Shown here: piece after piece, positions 43,847-63,114 of the stretch
Layout: each line of letters begins with the position of its first letter
Position numbering within the stretch: position 1 is the first letter of the stretch
Assembly (NCBI RefSeq): GCF_014230355.1
Contig: NZ_JACLAX010000012.1
Span: forward strand, 1 to 64,000
Direction: 5' to 3'
Source of the DNA: Novosphingobium piscinae
GTDB taxonomy: Bacteria > Pseudomonadota > Alphaproteobacteria > Sphingomonadales > Sphingomonadaceae
DNA length: 64,000 nucleotides
The notes under the pieces: generated by a model
What the model was told of the DNA's origin: nothing
What the model saw: the letters and a program-made list of their open reading frames with translations, nothing else
Database searches by the model: none
Program-made: the position numbers and the translations under genes

Positions 43847-43872
43847 CGTTTCTGCGTGGTTTGGCGTAGACC

Positions 43873-54570: not shown

Positions 54571-54870
54571 TCACGGCTTATCGAGCATCTTGCCCGCGCT
54601 GACCTTGACGAATTCGGCGATCTGGCCGGACATCATCTTGAGGAAGGCCGGGATGGTCAGCTCGCCCGTCACCGCGGCATCCTCGATCGCCAGGGTCACC
54701 GGAATGGTCTGGCCCATCGCGCCGATGGTCAGCTGCAGCGTGTCGGGGCCGGTCCATTCCGACTCGAGCGAGCCGCCGCCGGGGATGTGCGCGGCGAGCT
54801 TGGGCAAGCCCTGCTCGATCCGGCGGCGGGCCTCGTCGCGGCCGAGGCTGTGGGGAATGGTGATCTGCAT
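54571..54870 (-). CDS. Polyhydroxyalkanoic acid system family protein
   Basis: 99 residues, matching the small family annotated as PHA-system or PHA-granule-region protein: IPHSLGRDEARRRIEQGLPKLAAHIPGG followed by SLESEWTGPDTLQLTIGAMGQTIPVTLAIEDAAVTGELTIPAFLKMM. Its biochemical role is not established. It lies 27 bases after the acyl-CoA dehydrogenase stop and so closes the beta-oxidation operon, a context that fits channeling of hydroxyacyl-CoA units towards storage polymers. No PHA synthase is in the window. Confidence 0.85.
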   Translation of the reverse strand: MQITIPHSLGRDEARRRIEQGLPKLAAHIPGGGSLESEWTGPDTLQLTIGAMGQTIPVTLAIEDAAVTGELTIPAFLKMMSGQIAEFVKVSAGKMLDKP

Positions 54871-54897: not shown

Positions 54898-56688
54898 TCA
54901 GAACGCGTCGTCGGCCAGGGCCATCATCGACGCCTTGCCCGCCTTGATCGCCAGGAAATGGGCGGTCGCCTGGGGCAGGATGCGCTCGAAGAAGTAGGTC
55001 GCGGTCTTGATCTTGGCATCGTAGAACGCCTTGTCCGGGCTGCGGAAGAACAGCTGCAGCCCGGCGATCTTGGTCGCCCGGGCAAAGCAGTAGCCCATCG
55101 CCACCAGGCCGAGCAGGCGCAGGTAGTCGGCCGAGGCGGCGCCGGCCTCCTCCGGGTCCTTGAGCCCGCGCTGCGCGATCGTCGCGGTCGACAGCTGCAG
55201 CGCGCCGAAGGCCTTGGCGAGGGCCTCGATCATCGGCTTCATCGGCCCCTCGACGTTGTTCTCCTCGATGAACTGCGCCACCGGGTGGAAGAAGCTGCGC
55301 AGGTAGCGGCCCATGTGCGCGCCCAGCTTGCGCCCGACCAGGTCGAGCGCCTGCACGCCGTTGGTGCCCTCGTAGATCATCGTGATCCGGGCATCGCGGG
55401 CGTACTGCTCGACCCCGCTCTCGCGGATGTAGCCGTGACCGCCGTAGCACTGGATCGCCAGGTTGGCGCTGTCCGAGGCGAGGTCGGTGAACAGCGCCTT
55501 CACCACCGGGGTCATCAGCGCGACGAAATCGGCGGCGCGCTGGCGCACCTCGGGATCGGGCGAGTGGGCCTCGGCATCGAGCGCGCGGGCGACCCAGCCC
55601 GACAGGGCGCGGCAGCCTTCGTTGTAGGCGCGCATGGTCATCAGCATGCGCCGCACGTCGGGATGGACAAGGATCGGATCGGCCGGCTTGTCGGGATACT
55701 TCGCCCCCGACAGCGCGCGGCCCTGGAGCCGGTCTTTGGCGTACCACACGGCCGCCTGGTAGGCCGCCTCGCCCACGCCCAGCCCCTGGATGCCGACCGA
55801 GAGGCGCTCGGCGTTCATCATCGTGAACATGGCGGCCATGCCCTTGTGCGGCTCGCCCACCAGCCAGCCGGTGGCCTCCTCGAACAGCATCTGGCAGGTG
55901 GCCGAGGCCTTGAGCCCCATCTTGTGCTCGATCGCGCTGCAGCTGACGCCGTTGCGCGCGCCGGGGGTCCCGTCGGCCTGCGGCAGGAACTTGGGCACCA
56001 GGAACAGGCTGATCCCCTTGATCCCGGGCGGGGCATCGGGCAGCCGCGCCAGCACCAGGTGGACGATGTTCGAGGTCAGGTCGTGTTCGCCGGCCGAGAT
56101 GAAGATCTTGGCGCCGGTGAGCTTGTGGCTGCCATCGTCCTGCGGCACGGCGCGGGTGCGCAGCAGCCCGAGGTCGGTGCCGCAGTGCGCCTCGGTCAGG
56201 CACATCGTACCCGACCATTCGCCGCTGACCAGCTTGGGCAGGTAGGCGGCCTTGAGCGCCTCGCTGGCATGGCCCTCGATCGCGCAGACCGCACCATGGG
56301 TCAGCCCCGGGTAGAGCCCGAACGAGAGGTTGGCCGAACAGATCATCTCCTCGACCAGCTTGCCCACCGCGTCGGGCACCCCCTGGCCGCCCCATTCGGG
56401 CGACGAGGCGAGCGAGGTCCAGCCGCCTTCGGCGAACTGGCGATAGGCGTCGATGAACCCGGCCGGCGTGCGCACCACCCCGTTTTCGAGCCGGCAGCCT
56501 TCCTCGTCGCCGGGCAGGTTGAGCGGCAGCAGCACCTCACGGCAGAACCGCGCGGCCTCCTCCAGGATCGCGTCGGTCAGGTCGGGAGTGAACTCGGCGT
56601 GGATCGGCAGATCGCCGAAGCCGTCGTCGGTGTGCAGCTCGTTGAGCACGAAGCGCATGTCGCGCAGGGGAGCGTCATAGACTTGCAT
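54898..56688 (-). CDS. Acyl-CoA dehydrogenase (DmdC-like long form)
   Basis: FAD enzyme of 596 residues, the long form with a C-terminal extension seen in DmdC-type and related dehydrogenases. It begins MQVYDAPLRDMRFVLNEL. FAD/substrate segments are MCLTEAHCGTDLGLLRTRA (near residue 162), AIEHKMGLKASATCQMLFE and QCYGGHGYIRESGVEQYARDARITMIYEGTNGVQALDLVGRKL, which includes the catalytic Glu of YEGTN. It starts 12 bases after the fadB-like stop and carries out the first beta-oxidation step. The chain-length range cannot be read from the sequence. Confidence 0.94.
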   Translation of the reverse strand: MQVYDAPLRDMRFVLNELHTDDGFGDLPIHAEFTPDLTDAILEEAARFCREVLLPLNLPGDEEGCRLENGVVRTPAGFIDAYRQFAEGGWTSLASSPEWGGQGVPDAVGKLVEEMICSANLSFGLYPGLTHGAVCAIEGHASEALKAAYLPKLVSGEWSGTMCLTEAHCGTDLGLLRTRAVPQDDGSHKLTGAKIFISAGEHDLTSNIVHLVLARLPDAPPGIKGISLFLVPKFLPQADGTPGARNGVSCSAIEHKMGLKASATCQMLFEEATGWLVGEPHKGMAAMFTMMNAERLSVGIQGLGVGEAAYQAAVWYAKDRLQGRALSGAKYPDKPADPILVHPDVRRMLMTMRAYNEGCRALSGWVARALDAEAHSPDPEVRQRAADFVALMTPVVKALFTDLASDSANLAIQCYGGHGYIRESGVEQYARDARITMIYEGTNGVQALDLVGRKLGAHMGRYLRSFFHPVAQFIEENNVEGPMKPMIEALAKAFGALQLSTATIAQRGLKDPEEAGAASADYLRLLGLVAMGYCFARATKIAGLQLFFRSPDKAFYDAKIKTATYFFERILPQATAHFLAIKAGKASMMALADDAF

Positions 56689-56700
56689 GGTGGGTTCCCA

Positions 56701-59025
56701 TCAGTTCCGCAGCGGCTTGCCGGTTTCGAGCATGTGCTCGACCCGGGCCTGGCTGCGCGGATCACGCACGAGTTTCATGAAGGACTTGCGTTCCAGCGCG
56801 CGCATGTCCGCCTCGGTCAGCACGTCGACCAGATCGGCCTCGCCGCCAGTCAGGATGTCGGCCAGGGCATCGGCCACCACCCCGTCATAGGGCGTGGCCA
56901 GGCCCTGCGCCTGGAAGCCCTTGACCGCCAGGGTCAGCGCCGCCTTGCCGCCCGCGCCGGGCAGGCGGAACTCAGGCGGCTGCGGCGGCTGGTAGCCCTC
57001 CACCAGCTCGAGCGCGCGGGCCTTGGCATCGGCGAGCAGGCGATCGCGGTTCATCGTGACGCGGTCGGTCGGGCGCAGGAAGCCCAGCTCCTTCGCCTCG
57101 GCCCCGGACTTGGCCACCGTGGCGGTCGAGACCAGCTCGAACACCTTGGCCACCGCTGGCATCGGCCCCTTCGGCAGCATCGGGTTGTTCTTCCAGCGGT
57201 CGAGCATCTCGCCGCAGCCGCCCCAGCCCGGGATCAGGCCGACCCCGCATTCGACCAGCCCGATGTAGCTTTCGGCATGGGCCTGGATCGCATCGCTGTG
57301 CAGCAGCACCTCGCAGCCGCCGCCCAGTGCCAGCCCGGCCGGCGCGCTGACCACCGGGAACGGCGCGTACTTGAGCGCCAGGTAGGCATCCTGCCCGCCC
57401 TTGGTCAGCTTCTCGATCTCGCTCCAGGCTGCGATGTTGACCGCGAACATGGCGAGCCCGAGGTTCGCCCCGGCCGAGAAGTTGCTGCCTTCGTTGTAGA
57501 TCACCAGCGCCTTGTACTGCTCCTGCACCAGCGCGATCGCCTTGCCGATCAGCGTCATGACGTCGGCATCCAGCGCGTTCATCTTGCCGGTGAACTCCAG
57601 CGCGACCACGCCATCGCCGACATCCCACAACGCGGCCGAGCCGTTCTTGATCAGGGGTTTGCTGGCCAGCTTGATGTCCTCGAGCAGCAGCACGCCCGCG
57701 GGCCGGACCACGCCGCGATAGGTGCCATCGATCCCGAGGAACTGGCGCTTGCCCTCCTCGACCCGGTAGAACGGACGTTCGCCCGCGGTCTGCAGGATCG
57801 CCGGGACCTTGCGCCCTTCGGCCGCGAGCCGCGCCGCCAGGGCACCAGGCCCGAGCCGGTCGATCAGCTCGAACGGGCCGTACGCCCAGTTGTAGCCCAG
57901 CTTCATCGCGTCATCGATGGCGACCACGTCATCGGCTACCACGCCCACCAGATCGGCGGCATAGCCCAGCACCTTGCCCAGCACCTCCCAGGCATAGGCG
58001 CCGACCTTGCCCGGCGCCGCGACCAGCGCGGCCAGATCCTTCTCGGCCCCGCCGGGCAGGGGGGCGGGCTTGATCGTGGCGCGGAACTCGCCGGTCGCCA
58101 GATCGCGGGCCTGCTTGGTTCTGGTCGCCTTGTCGAAGGCGTAGAACCCGCCCTTGCCCTTGCGGCCGGTGTAACCCTCGGCGATCATCCGGTCGACCAG
58201 CGGCATCGGCCGTACGGTGTCGAAATAGGGATCGCCGGCCGGCAGGGTTGAGGTCAGGCTCTTGGTCAGGAGCGGCATGAGGTCGACCCCGACCAGATCG
58301 ATCAGGCCGAAGATCCCGGTCTTGGGCACGCCCATCGGCTTGCCGCCGATCTGGTCGGCCTCCTCGATGGTCAGGCCCTGGTCGATCGCCGCGTTCACCG
58401 CCACGGCCAGCCAGTAGGTGCCGATGCGGTTGGCGATGAAGCCCGGGGTGTCCTTGGTCGGCACCACCCGCTTGCCCAGCATGCGATCGACGAAGTCCTC
58501 TACCCGGCCGGCCACGGCGGCGTCGGTCTCGGTCCCGCGGACGATCTCGATCAGCCGCATGTAGCGCGGCGGGTTGAAGAAGTGGGTGATCAGGAAGTCG
58601 CGCCGGAACTGCTCGCCGCGCCCGTCGACCAGCGCGTTCAGCGGAATGGTCGAGGTGTTGGACGAAACTGCCGTGCCGGGGCGCTTGACCGCCTCGAGCC
58701 GGGCATAGAGCGCCTGCTTGATGTCCAGCCGCTCGACGATCGCCTCGACGATCCAGTCGCATTCGGCGGCCTTGTCGAGGTGATCCTCGATATTGCCGGT
58801 CTCGACCAGCTTGGCCGCGGCTTTCGACATGAAGGGGGCGGGATCGGTCTTCAGCATCTTGGCCACGGCCCCCTTGGCCACGGCGTCGCGATCATCCCCC
58901 TCCCTGGGCAGGATGTCGAGCAGCAGCACCGGCACACCGGCATTGGCCACCTGCGCGGCGATCCCGGCACCCATCGTGCCGGCGCCGATCACGCAGACCT
59001 TCTTGATCGGCTCGACAGCGCTCAT
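56701..59025 (-). CDS. 3-hydroxyacyl-CoA dehydrogenase/enoyl-CoA hydratase fusion
   Basis: 774-residue multifunctional beta-oxidation enzyme with the domain order NAD-binding dehydrogenase first (VCVIGAGTMGAGIAAQ near residue 10; ITHFFNPPRYMRLIEIV near 140), then the hydratase/isomerase domain (ALEFTGKMNALDADVMTLIGKAI near 470; NFSAGANLGLAMF; GLVECGVGLIPGWGGCGEML). This is the reverse of E. coli FadB and matches the FadN-like type. I start it at the ATG at 59025, which overlaps the thiolase stop by four bases (ATGA). It is the second gene of the fad operon. Confidence 0.94.
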   Translation of the reverse strand: MSAVEPIKKVCVIGAGTMGAGIAAQVANAGVPVLLLDILPREGDDRDAVAKGAVAKMLKTDPAPFMSKAAAKLVETGNIEDHLDKAAECDWIVEAIVERLDIKQALYARLEAVKRPGTAVSSNTSTIPLNALVDGRGEQFRRDFLITHFFNPPRYMRLIEIVRGTETDAAVAGRVEDFVDRMLGKRVVPTKDTPGFIANRIGTYWLAVAVNAAIDQGLTIEEADQIGGKPMGVPKTGIFGLIDLVGVDLMPLLTKSLTSTLPAGDPYFDTVRPMPLVDRMIAEGYTGRKGKGGFYAFDKATRTKQARDLATGEFRATIKPAPLPGGAEKDLAALVAAPGKVGAYAWEVLGKVLGYAADLVGVVADDVVAIDDAMKLGYNWAYGPFELIDRLGPGALAARLAAEGRKVPAILQTAGERPFYRVEEGKRQFLGIDGTYRGVVRPAGVLLLEDIKLASKPLIKNGSAALWDVGDGVVALEFTGKMNALDADVMTLIGKAIALVQEQYKALVIYNEGSNFSAGANLGLAMFAVNIAAWSEIEKLTKGGQDAYLALKYAPFPVVSAPAGLALGGGCEVLLHSDAIQAHAESYIGLVECGVGLIPGWGGCGEMLDRWKNNPMLPKGPMPAVAKVFELVSTATVAKSGAEAKELGFLRPTDRVTMNRDRLLADAKARALELVEGYQPPQPPEFRLPGAGGKAALTLAVKGFQAQGLATPYDGVVADALADILTGGEADLVDVLTEADMRALERKSFMKLVRDPRSQARVEHMLETGKPLRN

Positions 59026-60158
59026 CGCACCGCCTCCAGCACCGTGGCGATGCCCTGGCCGCCGCCGATGCACTGCGTGGCGAGCGCATAGGTGCCCCCT
59101 TCGCGCTGCAGCAGTGCCGCCGCCTTGCCGACGATCCGGGCGCCGGTGGCCCCCAGCGGGTGGCCGATCGCGATCGCGCCGCCATCGAGGTTGACCTTGG
59201 CGGCATCGAGCCCGAGGTCGGCGATGCAGGCCAGCGACTGGCTGGCGAAGGCCTCGTTCAGTTCGACCACGTCGATCTGGTCGGCGGTGATCCCGGCGCG
59301 CTTCATCGCCTTGCGGCTCGCCTCGACCGGGCCGATGCCCATGATCTCGGGCTGGCAGCCGGAGATCGCGACAGCCTTGATCCGCGCGAGGATCGGCAGC
59401 CCGTTGGCACGGGCATAGTCCTCGCTGGTGACCAGCACGGCGCTGGCGCCATCGGTCAGGGGCGAGGAGGTGCCGGCCGTGACCGTGCCGTCCTTGCTGA
59501 AGGCCGGCTTGAGCCCGGCGAGCGCCTCGGCCGTGGTGCCGGGGCGCGGGGTGCCGTCAGCGTCGACCATGCCGCCCTTGGTCTGGATCGGCACGATCTC
59601 GTCCGCCAGCTTGCCCGCGGCGATCGCGGCGGCGGCCTTGTCCTGGCTGGCGACCGCGAAGGCCTCCTGCTGGGCGCGGGTGATCTGGTACTTGCTGGCG
59701 ACGTTCTCGGCCGTCTCGCCCATCCCCATGTAGGCCGCGCTCTTCTTGGCCAGGGCCGGGTTCGGCAGCGGGTTGAAGCCCATCATCGGCACGCGGCTCA
59801 TCGCTTCCACGCCCGCGCAGATGAAGGCCTCGCCGGCGCCAAGCTGGATCTGCCCGGCGGCGATGTGGATCGAGCTCATCGACGAACCGCAGAAGCGGTT
59901 CACTGTCATCCCGCCGACCGACAGCGGCAGATCGGCGAGGAGGCCGACCAGCCGGGCGATGTTGAAGCCCTGCTCACCCTCGGGGAAAGCGCAGCCCATC
60001 ACGATATCCTCGATATCCTCGGCCTTGACCCCGGTCCGCTCGATCAGACCGCGAATCACCTGGCCGGCCAGGTCATCGGGCCGCACCCGGGCGAGGGCGC
60101 CCTTGCCGGCGAGGTGGAAGGGGGACCGGGCATAGCCCACGATGACGACATTGCGCAT
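59022..60158 (-). CDS. Acetyl-CoA acyltransferase (thiolase)
   Basis: Cleaves 3-oxoacyl-CoA to acetyl-CoA and a shorter acyl-CoA. The start ATG at 60158 (MRNVVIVGYARSPFHLAGKG) follows GAGAGG and gives 378 residues. Active-site residues are Cys in VNRFCGSSMSSIHIA (near 90), His in GGAIAIGHPLGATGAR (near 335) and Cys in CIGGGQGIA (near 365). First gene of the operon thiolase, 3HCDH/ECH, acyl-CoA dehydrogenase, PHA protein. The 54 bases between its start and the palindrome at 60212 carry the likely promoter. Confidence 0.94.
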   Translation of the reverse strand: MRNVVIVGYARSPFHLAGKGALARVRPDDLAGQVIRGLIERTGVKAEDIEDIVMGCAFPEGEQGFNIARLVGLLADLPLSVGGMTVNRFCGSSMSSIHIAAGQIQLGAGEAFICAGVEAMSRVPMMGFNPLPNPALAKKSAAYMGMGETAENVASKYQITRAQQEAFAVASQDKAAAAIAAGKLADEIVPIQTKGGMVDADGTPRPGTTAEALAGLKPAFSKDGTVTAGTSSPLTDGASAVLVTSEDYARANGLPILARIKAVAISGCQPEIMGIGPVEASRKAMKRAGITADQIDVVELNEAFASQSLACIADLGLDAAKVNLDGGAIAIGHPLGATGARIVGKAAALLQREGGTYALATQCIGGGQGIATVLEAVR

Positions 60159-60211
60159 TGATCGAAGCCTCTCCAGGGAATCGCTCATGGATGACCTAAT
60201 GGTGCTATAAA

Positions 60212-60225
60212 TGACGTATACGTCA
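60212..60225. promoter_or_regulatory. Palindromic operator candidate in the fad operon promoter
   Basis: TGACGTATACGTCA is a perfect 14-bp palindrome located 54-67 bases upstream of the thiolase ATG. On the minus strand its left end forms TTGACG, a fine -35, so it overlaps the promoter. The core is shared with the second site at 60304. Confidence 0.55.
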
Positions 60226-60303
60226 ACTGAAAAATGCAACCGGTCGCTGCGTGCGGTGCCTGCCGACGCATAGGGAATGTCGATGACGCATTGGGGTCTT
60301 GAC

Positions 60304-60317
60304 TTACCTATACGTAA
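60304..60317. promoter_or_regulatory. Second operator candidate, in the promoter of the divergent acyl-CoA synthetase unit
   Basis: TTACCTATACGTAA is a near-perfect palindrome (one mismatch, C for G) related to the first site (shared core TATACGT). It lies in the spacer between TTGACT (60299-60304) and GATGAT (60323-60328), the position used by MerR-family activators, 124 bases upstream of the DUF2147 ATG. Confidence 0.5.
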
Positions 60318-60440
60318 GCAGTGATGATCGCGCGACGCCGAATCCCCGCCGTGCGGCGGTCAGGGTCTGGCGAAAGGCTTGGCCAAGGCCCGCCGGCGCC
60401 GCTGCTCCGGTACCGCCGCGGCCCGAACGGGAGAGGATCG

Positions 60441-60839
60441 ATGCTGGTGCTGATGCTGGCGCAGGCCGCCGCGCTCTCGCCCGACCTGGCGATCGGCCGC
60501 TGGCAGACCGAAAGCCGCCATGGCATCGTCGAGATCGCACGCTGCGCAGCTGGCCTCTGCGGCACGCTGGTGGCGTCCGACGGGCTGCGTTCCAACCCCG
60601 ATCTGCGCGACAGCAAGAACCGCGATCCGGCGCTGCGCCAGCGCAACCTGCGCGGCCTGCCGATGCTGCAGGGCTTCCGCTGGCAGGATGGCGCCTGGAG
60701 CGGCGGCCGGCTCTACAACCCCGAAGACGGCGGCACCTACAGCGGTACGCTGACTATCCTCGGTCCTGACCGGCTGCGGCTGCGTGGCTGCATCGTCTGG
60801 CCGCTGTGCAAATCGCAGACCTGGTCACGGGTCCGCTGA
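60441..60839 (+). CDS. DUF2147 exported protein
   Basis: 132 residues from the ATG at 60441 (GGGAGAGGA five bases upstream). The N-terminus is a short hydrophobic stretch (LVLMLAQAAA) that is probably a signal peptide. The DUF2147 core is present: IGRWQTESRHGIVEIARCAAGLCGTLVAS, then GGRLYNPEDGGTYSGTLTILGPDRLRLRGCIVWPLCKSQTWSRV. Four Cys may form two disulfides. The fold of the family is a small lipocalin-like barrel; a role in fatty-acid binding would suit the location (34 bases before acyl-CoA synthetase) but is inference. Confidence 0.8.
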   Translation: MLVLMLAQAAALSPDLAIGRWQTESRHGIVEIARCAAGLCGTLVASDGLRSNPDLRDSKNRDPALRQRNLRGLPMLQGFRWQDGAWSGGRLYNPEDGGTYSGTLTILGPDRLRLRGCIVWPLCKSQTWSRVR

Positions 60840-60873
60840 GCCCTCCCGCCCTCGCAACGCAAGGAGCCCTGAC

Positions 60874-62583
60874 GTGTCGCTGCCCGATCCGCTGCCATCC
60901 CGCGAGGAACCCGGCGTGACCACGCCCGCCCCTGCCGCCGCCGCGGCGGCCTGGCCCGGACCGCCGATCCCGCCGCGGCTGCTGACCGACCTGCTGGACG
61001 GCGCGGCGCGCAATCATCCCGCCCGGGTGGCGATCGATTTCCTCGGCCGGACCTGGACCTATGGCGAGCTGGCCGGACTGGTCGAGCGCGCGGCGCGCGG
61101 CCTGCAGGACCATGGCCTGCGCCCGGGCGACCGCTTCGGGCTGTGCCTGCCCAACTGCCCCTACTTCGTGGTGCTCTATTTCGCCGCGCTGCGCGTCGGG
61201 GCGATCGTGGTCAACTTCAACCCGCTCTACACCGCGCGCGAGCTCGAGCATCAGATTCGCGATTCAGGAACCCGGATGCTGGCCGTTCCCGATGTCGCGC
61301 TGGTCCACGACAAGGTCGAGGAGGTCGCCGAACGGGCGGGGCTCGAGACCATCGTGCTGTGCGAAATGGCCGACATGTTGCCCTGGCTGAAGGGCCTCGG
61401 GTTCACCTGGTTCAAGCGCAAGGACCATGCGCGCATCCGCGACGAGCGCCGGCACCTGCGCATGCGCCGCTTGCTGGCCAGCCGCGGTCGGCCCGATCCG
61501 GTATCGATCCACCCCGACGACGTCGCCGTGCTGCAGTACACCGGCGGCACCACCGGGGTGCCCAAGGGCGCCATGCTGACCCATGCCAACCTCACCGCGA
61601 ACAGCGCGCAGATGGTCCGCCATGTCGAGGGCCTGCTCCCCGAGCAGTGCCGGGTGCTCGGGGTGCTGCCGATGTTCCACGTCTTCGCGTTGACCACGGT
61701 GCTCAACTTCTCGGTCGAGACCGCGACCGAGATGGTGCTGCTGCCGCGCTTCGAGATGGACCAGGTGCTGGCGACGATGAAGCGCAAGCCCCCGACCCAG
61801 TTCTTCGGCGTGCCGACGATCTACGTCGCGATCAACGATCTGGCCGAGGCGCGCATTCCCGATCTGTCTGCCGTACGCGCCTGCATCTCGGGCGGCGCCC
61901 CGCTCCCGCTCGAGGTGCGCGAGCGGTTCGAGGCGCGCACCGGCGCCAAGGTGGTGGAAGGCTACGGCCTGTCGGAAAGCTCGCCGATCATCGCCTGCAA
62001 CCCGATCGACGGGGTGATCAAGGCGAACAGCTGCGGCCCGGCCTTCCCGGGGACGATCCTCGAGATCCGCGACCCCGCCGACCCGACCCGGCTGCTGCCC
62101 CAGGGCGAACGCGGCGAGGTCTGGGCGCGCGGGCCGCAGGTGATGAAGGGCTACTGGCAGCGCGAGGAGGAGACCCGCGCGGTGCTGGTCGACGGCGCGC
62201 TGCGCACCGGTGACGTCGGCTACCTCGACGAGGACGGCTATCTGTTCCTCGTCGACCGGATCAAGGACGTCATCCTGTGCGGCGGCTACAACGTCTATCC
62301 GCGCGTGATCGAGGATGCCGCCTACCACCATCCGGCGATCAAGGAAGCCGTAGCGATCGGCGTGCCCGACGCCTATCGTGGCCAGTCGCCCAAGCTCTTC
62401 ATCGCATTGCACGAGCCTGGTTCGCTCACGCTTGACGAACTCAAGGCCTTCCTCGCCGAACGGCTCAGCCCGGTGGAGATGCCCAAGGCCTTCGAGTTCC
62501 GTGACAGCCTGCCCAAGACGATGATCGGCAAGCTTTCCAAAAAGGAACTGATCGCGGAAGAAGCCAAGAAAGGGCTCGCATGA
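60874..62583 (+). CDS. Long-chain acyl-CoA synthetase (AMP-forming)
   Basis: Activates fatty acids to acyl-CoA via acyl-AMP for beta-oxidation. Start is GTG at 60874, preceded by AAGGAG; the frame extends into the DUF2147 end without reason. The 569 residues have the ANL-superfamily motifs: LQYTGGTTGVPKGAMLTH (near 218), the A5 motif VVEGYGLSESSPIIA (near 365), RTGDVGYLDEDGYLFLVDRIKDVILCGGYNVYPRVIE (near 445-480), and the catalytic Lys near the end in PKTMIGKLSKKEL. FadD-like rather than acetyl-CoA synthetase. It lies before merR on the same strand. Confidence 0.93.
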   Translation: MSLPDPLPSREEPGVTTPAPAAAAAAWPGPPIPPRLLTDLLDGAARNHPARVAIDFLGRTWTYGELAGLVERAARGLQDHGLRPGDRFGLCLPNCPYFVVLYFAALRVGAIVVNFNPLYTARELEHQIRDSGTRMLAVPDVALVHDKVEEVAERAGLETIVLCEMADMLPWLKGLGFTWFKRKDHARIRDERRHLRMRRLLASRGRPDPVSIHPDDVAVLQYTGGTTGVPKGAMLTHANLTANSAQMVRHVEGLLPEQCRVLGVLPMFHVFALTTVLNFSVETATEMVLLPRFEMDQVLATMKRKPPTQFFGVPTIYVAINDLAEARIPDLSAVRACISGGAPLPLEVRERFEARTGAKVVEGYGLSESSPIIACNPIDGVIKANSCGPAFPGTILEIRDPADPTRLLPQGERGEVWARGPQVMKGYWQREEETRAVLVDGALRTGDVGYLDEDGYLFLVDRIKDVILCGGYNVYPRVIEDAAYHHPAIKEAVAIGVPDAYRGQSPKLFIALHEPGSLTLDELKAFLAERLSPVEMPKAFEFRDSLPKTMIGKLSKKELIAEEAKKGLA

Positions 62584-62688: not shown

Positions 62689-63114
62689 ATGTCCACGCCT
62701 GAACCCGCCCGGCCCCGGGGGGAGGGCGAGGCGTCGGTGCAGGGCATCCAGGACGTGGCGCAGGAGCTGGGCATCACGCTGCGCACGCTACGCTTCTACG
62801 AGAACGAGGGCCTGATCGATCCCCAGCGGGTGGGCAACCGGCGGATCTACTCACGCCGCGAGGTGGCCCGGATCCAGCTGATCCTGCGCGGCAAGCGGCT
62901 GGGCTTCTCGATCCGCGAGATCAAGGAGTTCCTCGATCTCTACGATGCCGACCCGGAGCACCAGGAGCAGATGGAACGTCTGGCCGCAAGGGTGCGCGAG
63001 CGGCTGGTCGATCTGCGCAAGCAGCGCGACGCGCTCGACCTGACCATCGCCGAACTGACCACGATCGAGCGCGACGCGCTCGCCTATCTGCAGCGCACCG
63101 CGCGCACCGGCTGA
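62689..63114 (+). CDS. MerR-family regulator of the fatty-acid locus
   Basis: 141 residues. The MerR HTH is in residues about 15-85 (IQDVAQELGITLRTLRFYENEGLIDPQRVGNRRIYSRREVARIQLILRGKRLGFSIREIKEFLDLY), then a coiled-coil dimerisation helix (ERLAARVRERLVDLRKQRDALDLTIAEL). No C-terminal metal or drug domain follows, and the Cys residues of metal sensors are missing, as in LiuR-type regulators of catabolic genes. It follows the acyl-CoA synthetase by 105 bases. I infer that it binds the two GTATACGT-type sites in the divergent promoter region. The start has no clear ribosome site. Confidence 0.85.
   Translation: MSTPEPARPRGEGEASVQGIQDVAQELGITLRTLRFYENEGLIDPQRVGNRRIYSRREVARIQLILRGKRLGFSIREIKEFLDLYDADPEHQEQMERLAARVRERLVDLRKQRDALDLTIAELTTIERDALAYLQRTARTG

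Follow-up and report, generated by a model that had tools for sequence, protein, structure and literature searches.

A probable MerR-family switch for fatty-acid activation and beta-oxidation in Novosphingobium piscinae, with a wider predicted gene network in its relatives

Two palindromes that lie between a leftward beta-oxidation operon and a rightward fatty-acid activation unit of Novosphingobium piscinae are very likely the operators of a MerR-family protein encoded in the same region (62689-63114, + strand), which would control the acyl-CoA synthetase, beta-oxidation and itself. Both sites were found in a stretch of 64,000 nucleotides (hereafter the window), and comparison among related genomes shows co-inheritance of site and regulator, conservation of the operator and its spacing, and functional coherence of the putative targets. 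An earlier sequence-only reading had proposed a local regulon of this kind; this interpretation is largely supported but was too narrow in scope, as a guess made from one sequence now appears to extend to a wider gene network in relatives.

The leftward operon (- strand) begins with a fadA-type thiolase gene (59022-60158; Pfam Thiolase_N/C, TIGR01930 above cut-off), whose start was set at MRNVVIVGY (60158), followed by a fadB-type 3-hydroxyacyl-CoA dehydrogenase/enoyl-CoA hydratase gene (56701-59025; Pfam 3HCDH_N, 3HCDH and ECH_1) and, in third position, a fadE-type acyl-CoA dehydrogenase gene (54898-56688; Pfam Acyl-CoA_dh_N/M/1 and Acyl-CoA_dh_C). The acyl-CoA synthetase had been thought to head the rightward unit (+ strand); the order is in fact a DUF2147 gene (60441-60839; Pfam PF09917), found at the same place in many relatives' loci, then the long-chain acyl-CoA synthetase gene (acs; longest frame 60784-62583; Pfam AMP-binding) and finally merR (Pfam MerR_1 and MerR-DNA-bind; a member of the orthologue clade described below). 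The true start of acs is probably slightly downstream of the longest-frame start at 60784, and the best NCBIfam names of its product are long-chain fatty-acid--CoA ligase, with scores below their cut-offs. That merR ends the unit holds in part: it lies 3' of acs on the same strand, but the next frame on that strand, for an MFS transporter, may or may not be a further member. A FadL-type porin gene, present between DUF2147 and acs in several relatives, is absent from the window at 60839-60900, and a search of the window's genome (G000) with the L053 protein gave no match elsewhere; L033 also has no such porin between the two genes. At the other end of the locus, directly after fadE (54571-54870), stands a gene for a PHA granule-region protein (PF09650), with a match after fadE in L034 too; its position hints that the fad operon is tied to storage polyester.

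Both palindromes read from the sequence alone are present: TGACGTATACGTCA (60212-60225) is perfect over 14 bp, and TTACCTATACGTAA (60304-60317) has 6 of its 7 pairs matching, with one mismatched pair. Extended to 16 bp, operator 1 on the fadA side covers 60211-60226 (- strand; TTGACGTATACGTCAT on the fadA strand), is conserved and contains a TTGACG -35-like hexamer, and operator 2 of the rightward unit covers 60303-60318 (+ strand; CTTACCTATACGTAAG), with counterparts in L033, L034, L148, L244 and L246. When up to three mismatches to TGACGTATACGTCA were allowed, the window gave 3 matches (the two palindromes and a site at 43862) against 0.50 expected, and three or more matches arose in 1 of 100 shuffles. 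A scoring matrix was also built from 27 sites in relatives, the window being left out: the top two 16-mers of the 64 kb were operators 1 and 2 (scores 18.9 and 18.0), and the best scores in 20 shuffled windows were 13.8 once and at most 8.5 in the rest. The shuffles and the matrix scan together rule out chance as the origin of both palindromes. At up to two mismatches, TGACGTATACGTCA has a single match in the whole genome besides the window site (C22:8364), which was dropped as a further operator because, by eye, it falls within a UvrA-like reading frame. Between the two operators lies a weak third operator-like site (60263-60278, - strand; ATTCCCTATGCGTCGG; matrix score 9.2); the two nearest loci, L033 and L034, show no above-cut-off counterpart of it, and it may be a chance occurrence. 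A regulator whose gene lies nearby very probably docks at the palindromes at 60212-60225 and 60304-60317.

As expected of the MerR superfamily, sequence and conservation place a predicted palindromic operator in or near the -35/-10 region, with a match to the promoter consensus on the right side only. There, a sigma70-like promoter (60299-60328, + strand; a consensus match only) consists of TTGACT, an 18-bp spacer and GATGAT. The second palindrome had been placed within this spacer, and most of it does lie there, ahead of GATGAT (60323-60328), but it overlaps the last base of TTGACT (60299-60304). The fadA side was aligned in 27 loci (L054 and L232, near-copies of retained loci, and L241 were excluded), yielding a gene-strand consensus of TTGACGTATAGGGAAA, a 7-base gap and CACCNTTAGG at fixed spacing; in most loci ~50-90 bases separate the operator start from fadA, and 13 of the 16 operator columns exceed 1.2 bits. 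The downstream block (CACCATTAGG in the window, 60195-60204, - strand) is in register in most of the 27 loci and is probably part of the fadA core promoter (perhaps the -10 region), or else the site of a second factor; the alignment revealed no clear -10 hexamer in the region downstream of operator 1. Because the fadA-side consensus is asymmetric, the usual operator is an imperfect palindrome, TTTCCC-TATA-CGTCAA, of which the symmetric fadA site of the window is a local variant. Each unit has an operator of its own in all six loci of the subclade to which the window belongs (window, L033, L034, L148, L244 and L246; support 99/98, L033 and L246 being merged with identical tree rows), and the other 23 compared loci have a single operator between the two units. 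The two-operator layout thus marks this subclade.

We propose that a MerR dimer would occupy the 16-bp operator (TTGACG-TATA-(G/C)G(G/T)(A/C)AA on the fadA strand), which overlaps the -35 region upstream of fadA-fadB-fadE, and that the same protein would bind the second copy in the DUF2147-acs-merR promoter. Because operators sit at both units, fatty-acid activation by Acs, beta-oxidation and the synthesis of the regulator would be controlled jointly. Control of MerR over itself, as the sequence-only reading had it, is plausible: merR is the gene 3' of acs here and, in L082, L239 and L255, it is directly divergent from fadA with the operator between them. We hold with high confidence that the window MerR binds the predicted operators. 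As its main mode of action we favour, with some reserve, repression by covering the -35 region, and we lean slightly towards acyl-CoA, the predicted ligand, as the signal that would release the protein.

The main rival to repression is that the protein works as a classical MerR activator, bound in or near an over-long spacer so that the ligand realigns the -35 and -10 elements. Operator 2, lying between TTGACT and GATGAT, would suit such a mechanism, as would the ~20 bp, more than a normal spacer, that separate TTGACG from a TTTAGG/TATAGG-like block kept in register on the fadA side of the 27 loci. However, the fadA-side operator covers the -35-like hexamer and its centre is off the middle of the spacer, while the distance from the operator to the downstream block varies by eye among the fadA, etfB and ech sites; in addition, LiuR, the nearest characterised kind, is termed a repressor (PMC3223726). 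Activation is therefore possible but doubtful.

Conservation of the sites alongside this merR and fad operon in other species, which the sequence-only reading had named as a check of its proposal, was found in 9/9 loci of a first set and 19/20 loci from other genera. The MerR protein was searched independently of the motif in 41 genomes (the window's own and 40 relatives), which gave close matches (61-65%) in 6 of 24 congeners and, in most genomes, a second, more distant match. The first set joins the window, the 6 loci of this search and 2 named records: in each of the nine, fadEBA diverges from an acs-merR unit, with DUF2147 and a FadL-type porin gene standing in between in several, and TTTCCCTATACGTCAA or a variant of it lies ahead of fadA. 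On a larger scale, a close MerR (E 1e-32 or better) is encoded in 69/195 genomes of the genus and in 39/298 sampled genomes of the family, distributed over 15 of 96 genera, or rather 14 because the protein of G348 falls in the paralogue clade (see below). Twenty loci from 14 other genera were then picked by the MerR protein alone. Nineteen have divergent fadA-fadB and a near-identical operator, and those whose 7.2 kb extend far enough also show fadE; the twentieth, L241 (from G348), belongs to the paralogue clade and its stretch contains no fad match and no site. In a held-out test (matrix from the first nine loci, 200 shuffles per locus), the best scores of these 19 loci averaged 23.5 vs 2.0 in shuffles; the real score was unmatched in 18 of them, and that of L239 was equalled once among 200.

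The acs-merR half of the locus seems to be mobile. L247 (NZ_CP054857.1, 1812-10635) is a plasmid-borne DUF2147-porin-acs-merR block whose MerR is 80% identical to that of the window, and it is flanked on both sides by IS6 transposase genes; MerR copies at 79% are also carried by plasmids of N. resinovorum and Sphingobium WTD-1.

The presence of the operator follows that of the regulator. The exact pattern TNMCSTATRCGTCAA occurs in 69/69 MerR-positive genomes of the genus vs 1/80 MerR-negative ones (80 of the 126 MerR-negative genus genomes, nearly all at least 90% complete), counts that are not independent events, the genomes coming from related species; with a reversed control pattern, matches numbered 6 in the former and 4 in the latter. 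All 69 MerR-positive genomes have an exact site 0.4-4.3 kb from a merR (12-kb limit). Six second-copy merR loci lack an exact site over the same 12 kb; one of them, L247, was read on its plasmid and displays a variant, CTTACCTATACGTCAT, ahead of DUF2147. Since operators near merR could be kept merely through inheritance of the whole locus, those unlinked to it carry more weight: a further 43 exact sites lie elsewhere, in 26 of the 69 MerR-positive genomes (Fisher P 1.6e-9 vs 1/80, a guide only because the species are related).

This distribution bears on another explanation, which takes the sites for ordinary elements of a promoter (TTGACG -35 boxes) or for those of an unrelated regulator that happened to be retained with the locus. 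The fadA-side operator indeed holds TTGACG, and a second conserved block keeps its register with this operator. Yet the constraint reaches far past the -35 box, over the 13 of 16 informative columns, and the pattern is tied to the presence of merR, its unlinked recurrence being almost solely in MerR-positive genomes. We consider this explanation most improbable, and its plain promoter-element version is rejected on the merR-tied distribution and the operator-wide constraint.

Thirty of the 43 unlinked sites were read and their targets assigned by tblastn; 24 precede etfB, thioesterase, enoyl-CoA hydratase (ech) or ETF-quinone oxidoreductase (ETF-QO) genes. The sites are centred 87-101 bases upstream of etfB (nine cases), or lie at the start codon of a thioesterase gene of the 4HBT type (eight), ~50 bases upstream of ech (six, a short-chain dehydrogenase gene adjoining in four) and upstream of the ETF-QO gene (one). 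The remaining six are found before HlyD-type genes (two), a nitronate monooxygenase-like gene (one) and no recognised gene (three: L202, L204 and L206). The two HlyD-type sites (L208 and L211) are equally placed, with 120 bases from site centre to start, and represent an efflux link or chance. Because ETF and ETF-QO accept the electrons of acyl-CoA dehydrogenase, the target set is coherent as one pathway. In related species the same regulator would thus also act on etfB, ETF-QO, the ech operon and the thioesterase gene, which would complete the electron path of beta-oxidation.

A local regulon, as first suggested, fits the genome of the window itself, where further operator sites are not in excess over the reversed control, but not its relatives, in which sites are dispersed to etfB, ETF-QO, ech and thioesterase genes. 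A dispersed beta-oxidation regulon therefore appears to exist in the relatives though none is visible in G000. EtfB was not found in this assembly: a PF01012 (ETF) search of it returned none despite the presence of fadE (the assembly is rated 99.9% complete and a missing stretch is possible), and the same search was positive in 5/5 other genomes of the genus and in 10/14 control genomes. In the nearest genome, G041, whose layout is that of L033, the fad operon itself closes with etfBA.

A paralogous MerR protein has to be considered as a reader of these sites. When the pattern is loosened (TTNMCSTATACGTCAA, 1 mismatch), 146/195 genomes of the genus match, many of them MerR-negative, and in the latter the matches listed are mostly TTTACGTAAACGTCAA, the paralogue's kind. 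The LiuR-like paralogue of the window's genome (C44:69950, frame 69809-70270) is 45% identical to the window MerR, is followed by a FadE-type gene and has its own upstream site, TTGACGTTCACGTAA. Such paralogues share 41-56% identity with the window protein across the part that matched, and in thirteen of their loci (L059-L071) a FadE-type gene adjoins in 12/13 and TTGACGYTTACGTAAA or a variant lies upstream, by eye, in 13/13. A tree of 76 proteins separates 50 fad-linked orthologues from 26 paralogues (100/99 each), with the reservation that it was computed from few columns with a rough bootstrap and contains some long branches. The Sphingomonadales paralogue is hence of the same family and has a related upstream motif, but it differs by its separate clade and its merR-fadE gene order. 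Could it read the operators, alone or with the linked MerR? Operator 1 (TTGACGTATACGTCA) matches without mismatch TTGACGYWWACGTMA, a pattern drawn from the paralogue's upstream motif with the core left open, and the fadA-side site of L246 has a TAAA core, as in that motif. However, the paralogue is widespread, also in genomes without a linked merR (G009, G011, G015 and G024), and yet the exact operator occurs in 1/80 MerR-negative genomes; moreover, the usual operator TTTCCCTATACGTCAA deviates from the paralogue motif. We regard reading by the paralogue as unlikely, and the linked MerR as very probably the protein that binds the operators.

It is tempting to speculate, although the odds seem to us rather against it, that these proteins form an alphaproteobacterial MerR family of fad regulators, from Sphingomonadales (operator TTTCCC-TATA-CGTCAA) to Rhodobacterales/Hyphomicrobiales, in which one subclade gained the acs-merR operator, some fadA sites then becoming symmetric and paralogue-like, so that two MerR proteins may share the fad promoter. 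If true, the shared promoter may couple fatty-acid breakdown with that of other acyl-CoAs. 

In a tree that includes named plasmid proteins, the fad-cluster MerR proteins of Alloyangia and Martelella join the window clade (91/91, moderate; unrooted). The Martelella plasmid gathers etfBA, thioesterase, acs, merR and fadABE in a single cluster; related sites lie upstream of etfB, in the interval from thioesterase to acs, and at the 3' end of acs ahead of merR. This arrangement speaks for the proposed regulon. The best site of Alloyangia (order FadL-acs-merR-fadABE) scores only 9.6, Azospirillum B510 (order merR-fadABE) has a LiuR-type motif upstream of merR, and a matrix scan of the Paracoccus locus detected no site scoring above 7. 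Beyond Sphingomonadales, the occurrence of the operator thus appears uneven.

The window MerR (141 residues) bears the domains of its superfamily (PF13411, 9e-18; PF09278, 4.1e-15; PF00376, 1.2e-10; all above cut-off), and the nearest solved structures by sequence are MerR and CueR. All 14 of its NCBIfam matches are far under their cut-offs. Metal and redox sensors of the MerR family use ligand cysteines and, because the window protein has none, its signal is unlikely to be a metal or a redox change; the absent cysteine and the low NCBIfam scores rule out a metal-sensing identity. In the tree, MerR proteins encoded near liu-type genes in Vibrio and Aeromonas form a separate branch (97/90; unrooted), their neighbours being carboxyl transferase and enoyl-CoA hydratase genes in both, with acyl-CoA dehydrogenase and HMGL-type genes in Vibrio and biotin carboxylase in Aeromonas; the Azospirillum protein falls outside both this branch and that of the window. 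The window protein does not group with MerR proteins that neighbour liu genes, and the genes that surround it or that it is predicted to control (fad, acs, fadL, etf, ETF-QO, ech and thioesterase) are not those of branched-chain amino acid degradation. The earlier label of LiuR-like was right as to kind, but the branch is a separate one: the protein is probably LiuR-like in its working and distinct from the liu-flanked MerR proteins.

If correct, these predictions describe in Sphingomonadales, and perhaps in other Alphaproteobacteria, a MerR fatty-acid switch that would reach from activation through beta-oxidation to the ETF chain. With their related but distinct operators, the two paralogous MerR clades would also be a clean case for studying the divergence of operator specificity. 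We found no description of a MerR fatty-acid regulator in Sphingomonadales in the open-licence literature, although a computational regulog may exist. A DAP-seq study of N. aromaticivorans (PMC12352068) included two MerR proteins, of which Saro_1479 gave 1 peak and Saro_2364 gave 0 peaks; either may or may not be the orthologue of the window protein.

Among known systems, MerR, CueR, ZntR and SoxR have a DNA-binding fold in common with the window MerR, which is set apart from them by the NCBIfam scores and the absence of cysteine. LiuR is said to have been described by Kazakov et al. in 2009 as a MerR-family regulator of branched-chain amino acid degradation. It is described as a MerR-type repressor that governs the use of branched-chain amino acids (PMC3223726), is listed in one table for 103 genomes and 15 taxa (PMC5343134) and, in R. 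rubrum, is tied to butyrate assimilation (PMC7238569). FadR, PsrA and FadP are proteobacterial fatty-acid degradation regulators of the GntR and TetR families (PMC5343134); they control the same pathway but are unrelated to the window MerR as proteins. The likeness to LiuR is closer: a short protein of the MerR family, acyl-CoA catabolic targets and TTGACGT-type half-sites in the operator. The Vibrio MerR gene adjoining liu-type genes has TTTACGTAAACGTAAA upstream, and comparison with such LiuR-type sites, taken from these genomes rather than from a published consensus, shows the half-site TTGACGT in common and differences in the core and left half. The putative operators of the window clade have a TATA core and an asymmetric left half, TTTCCC, and the predicted targets are fatty-acid activation, beta-oxidation and ETF, whereas those of LiuR are the liu/ivd genes.
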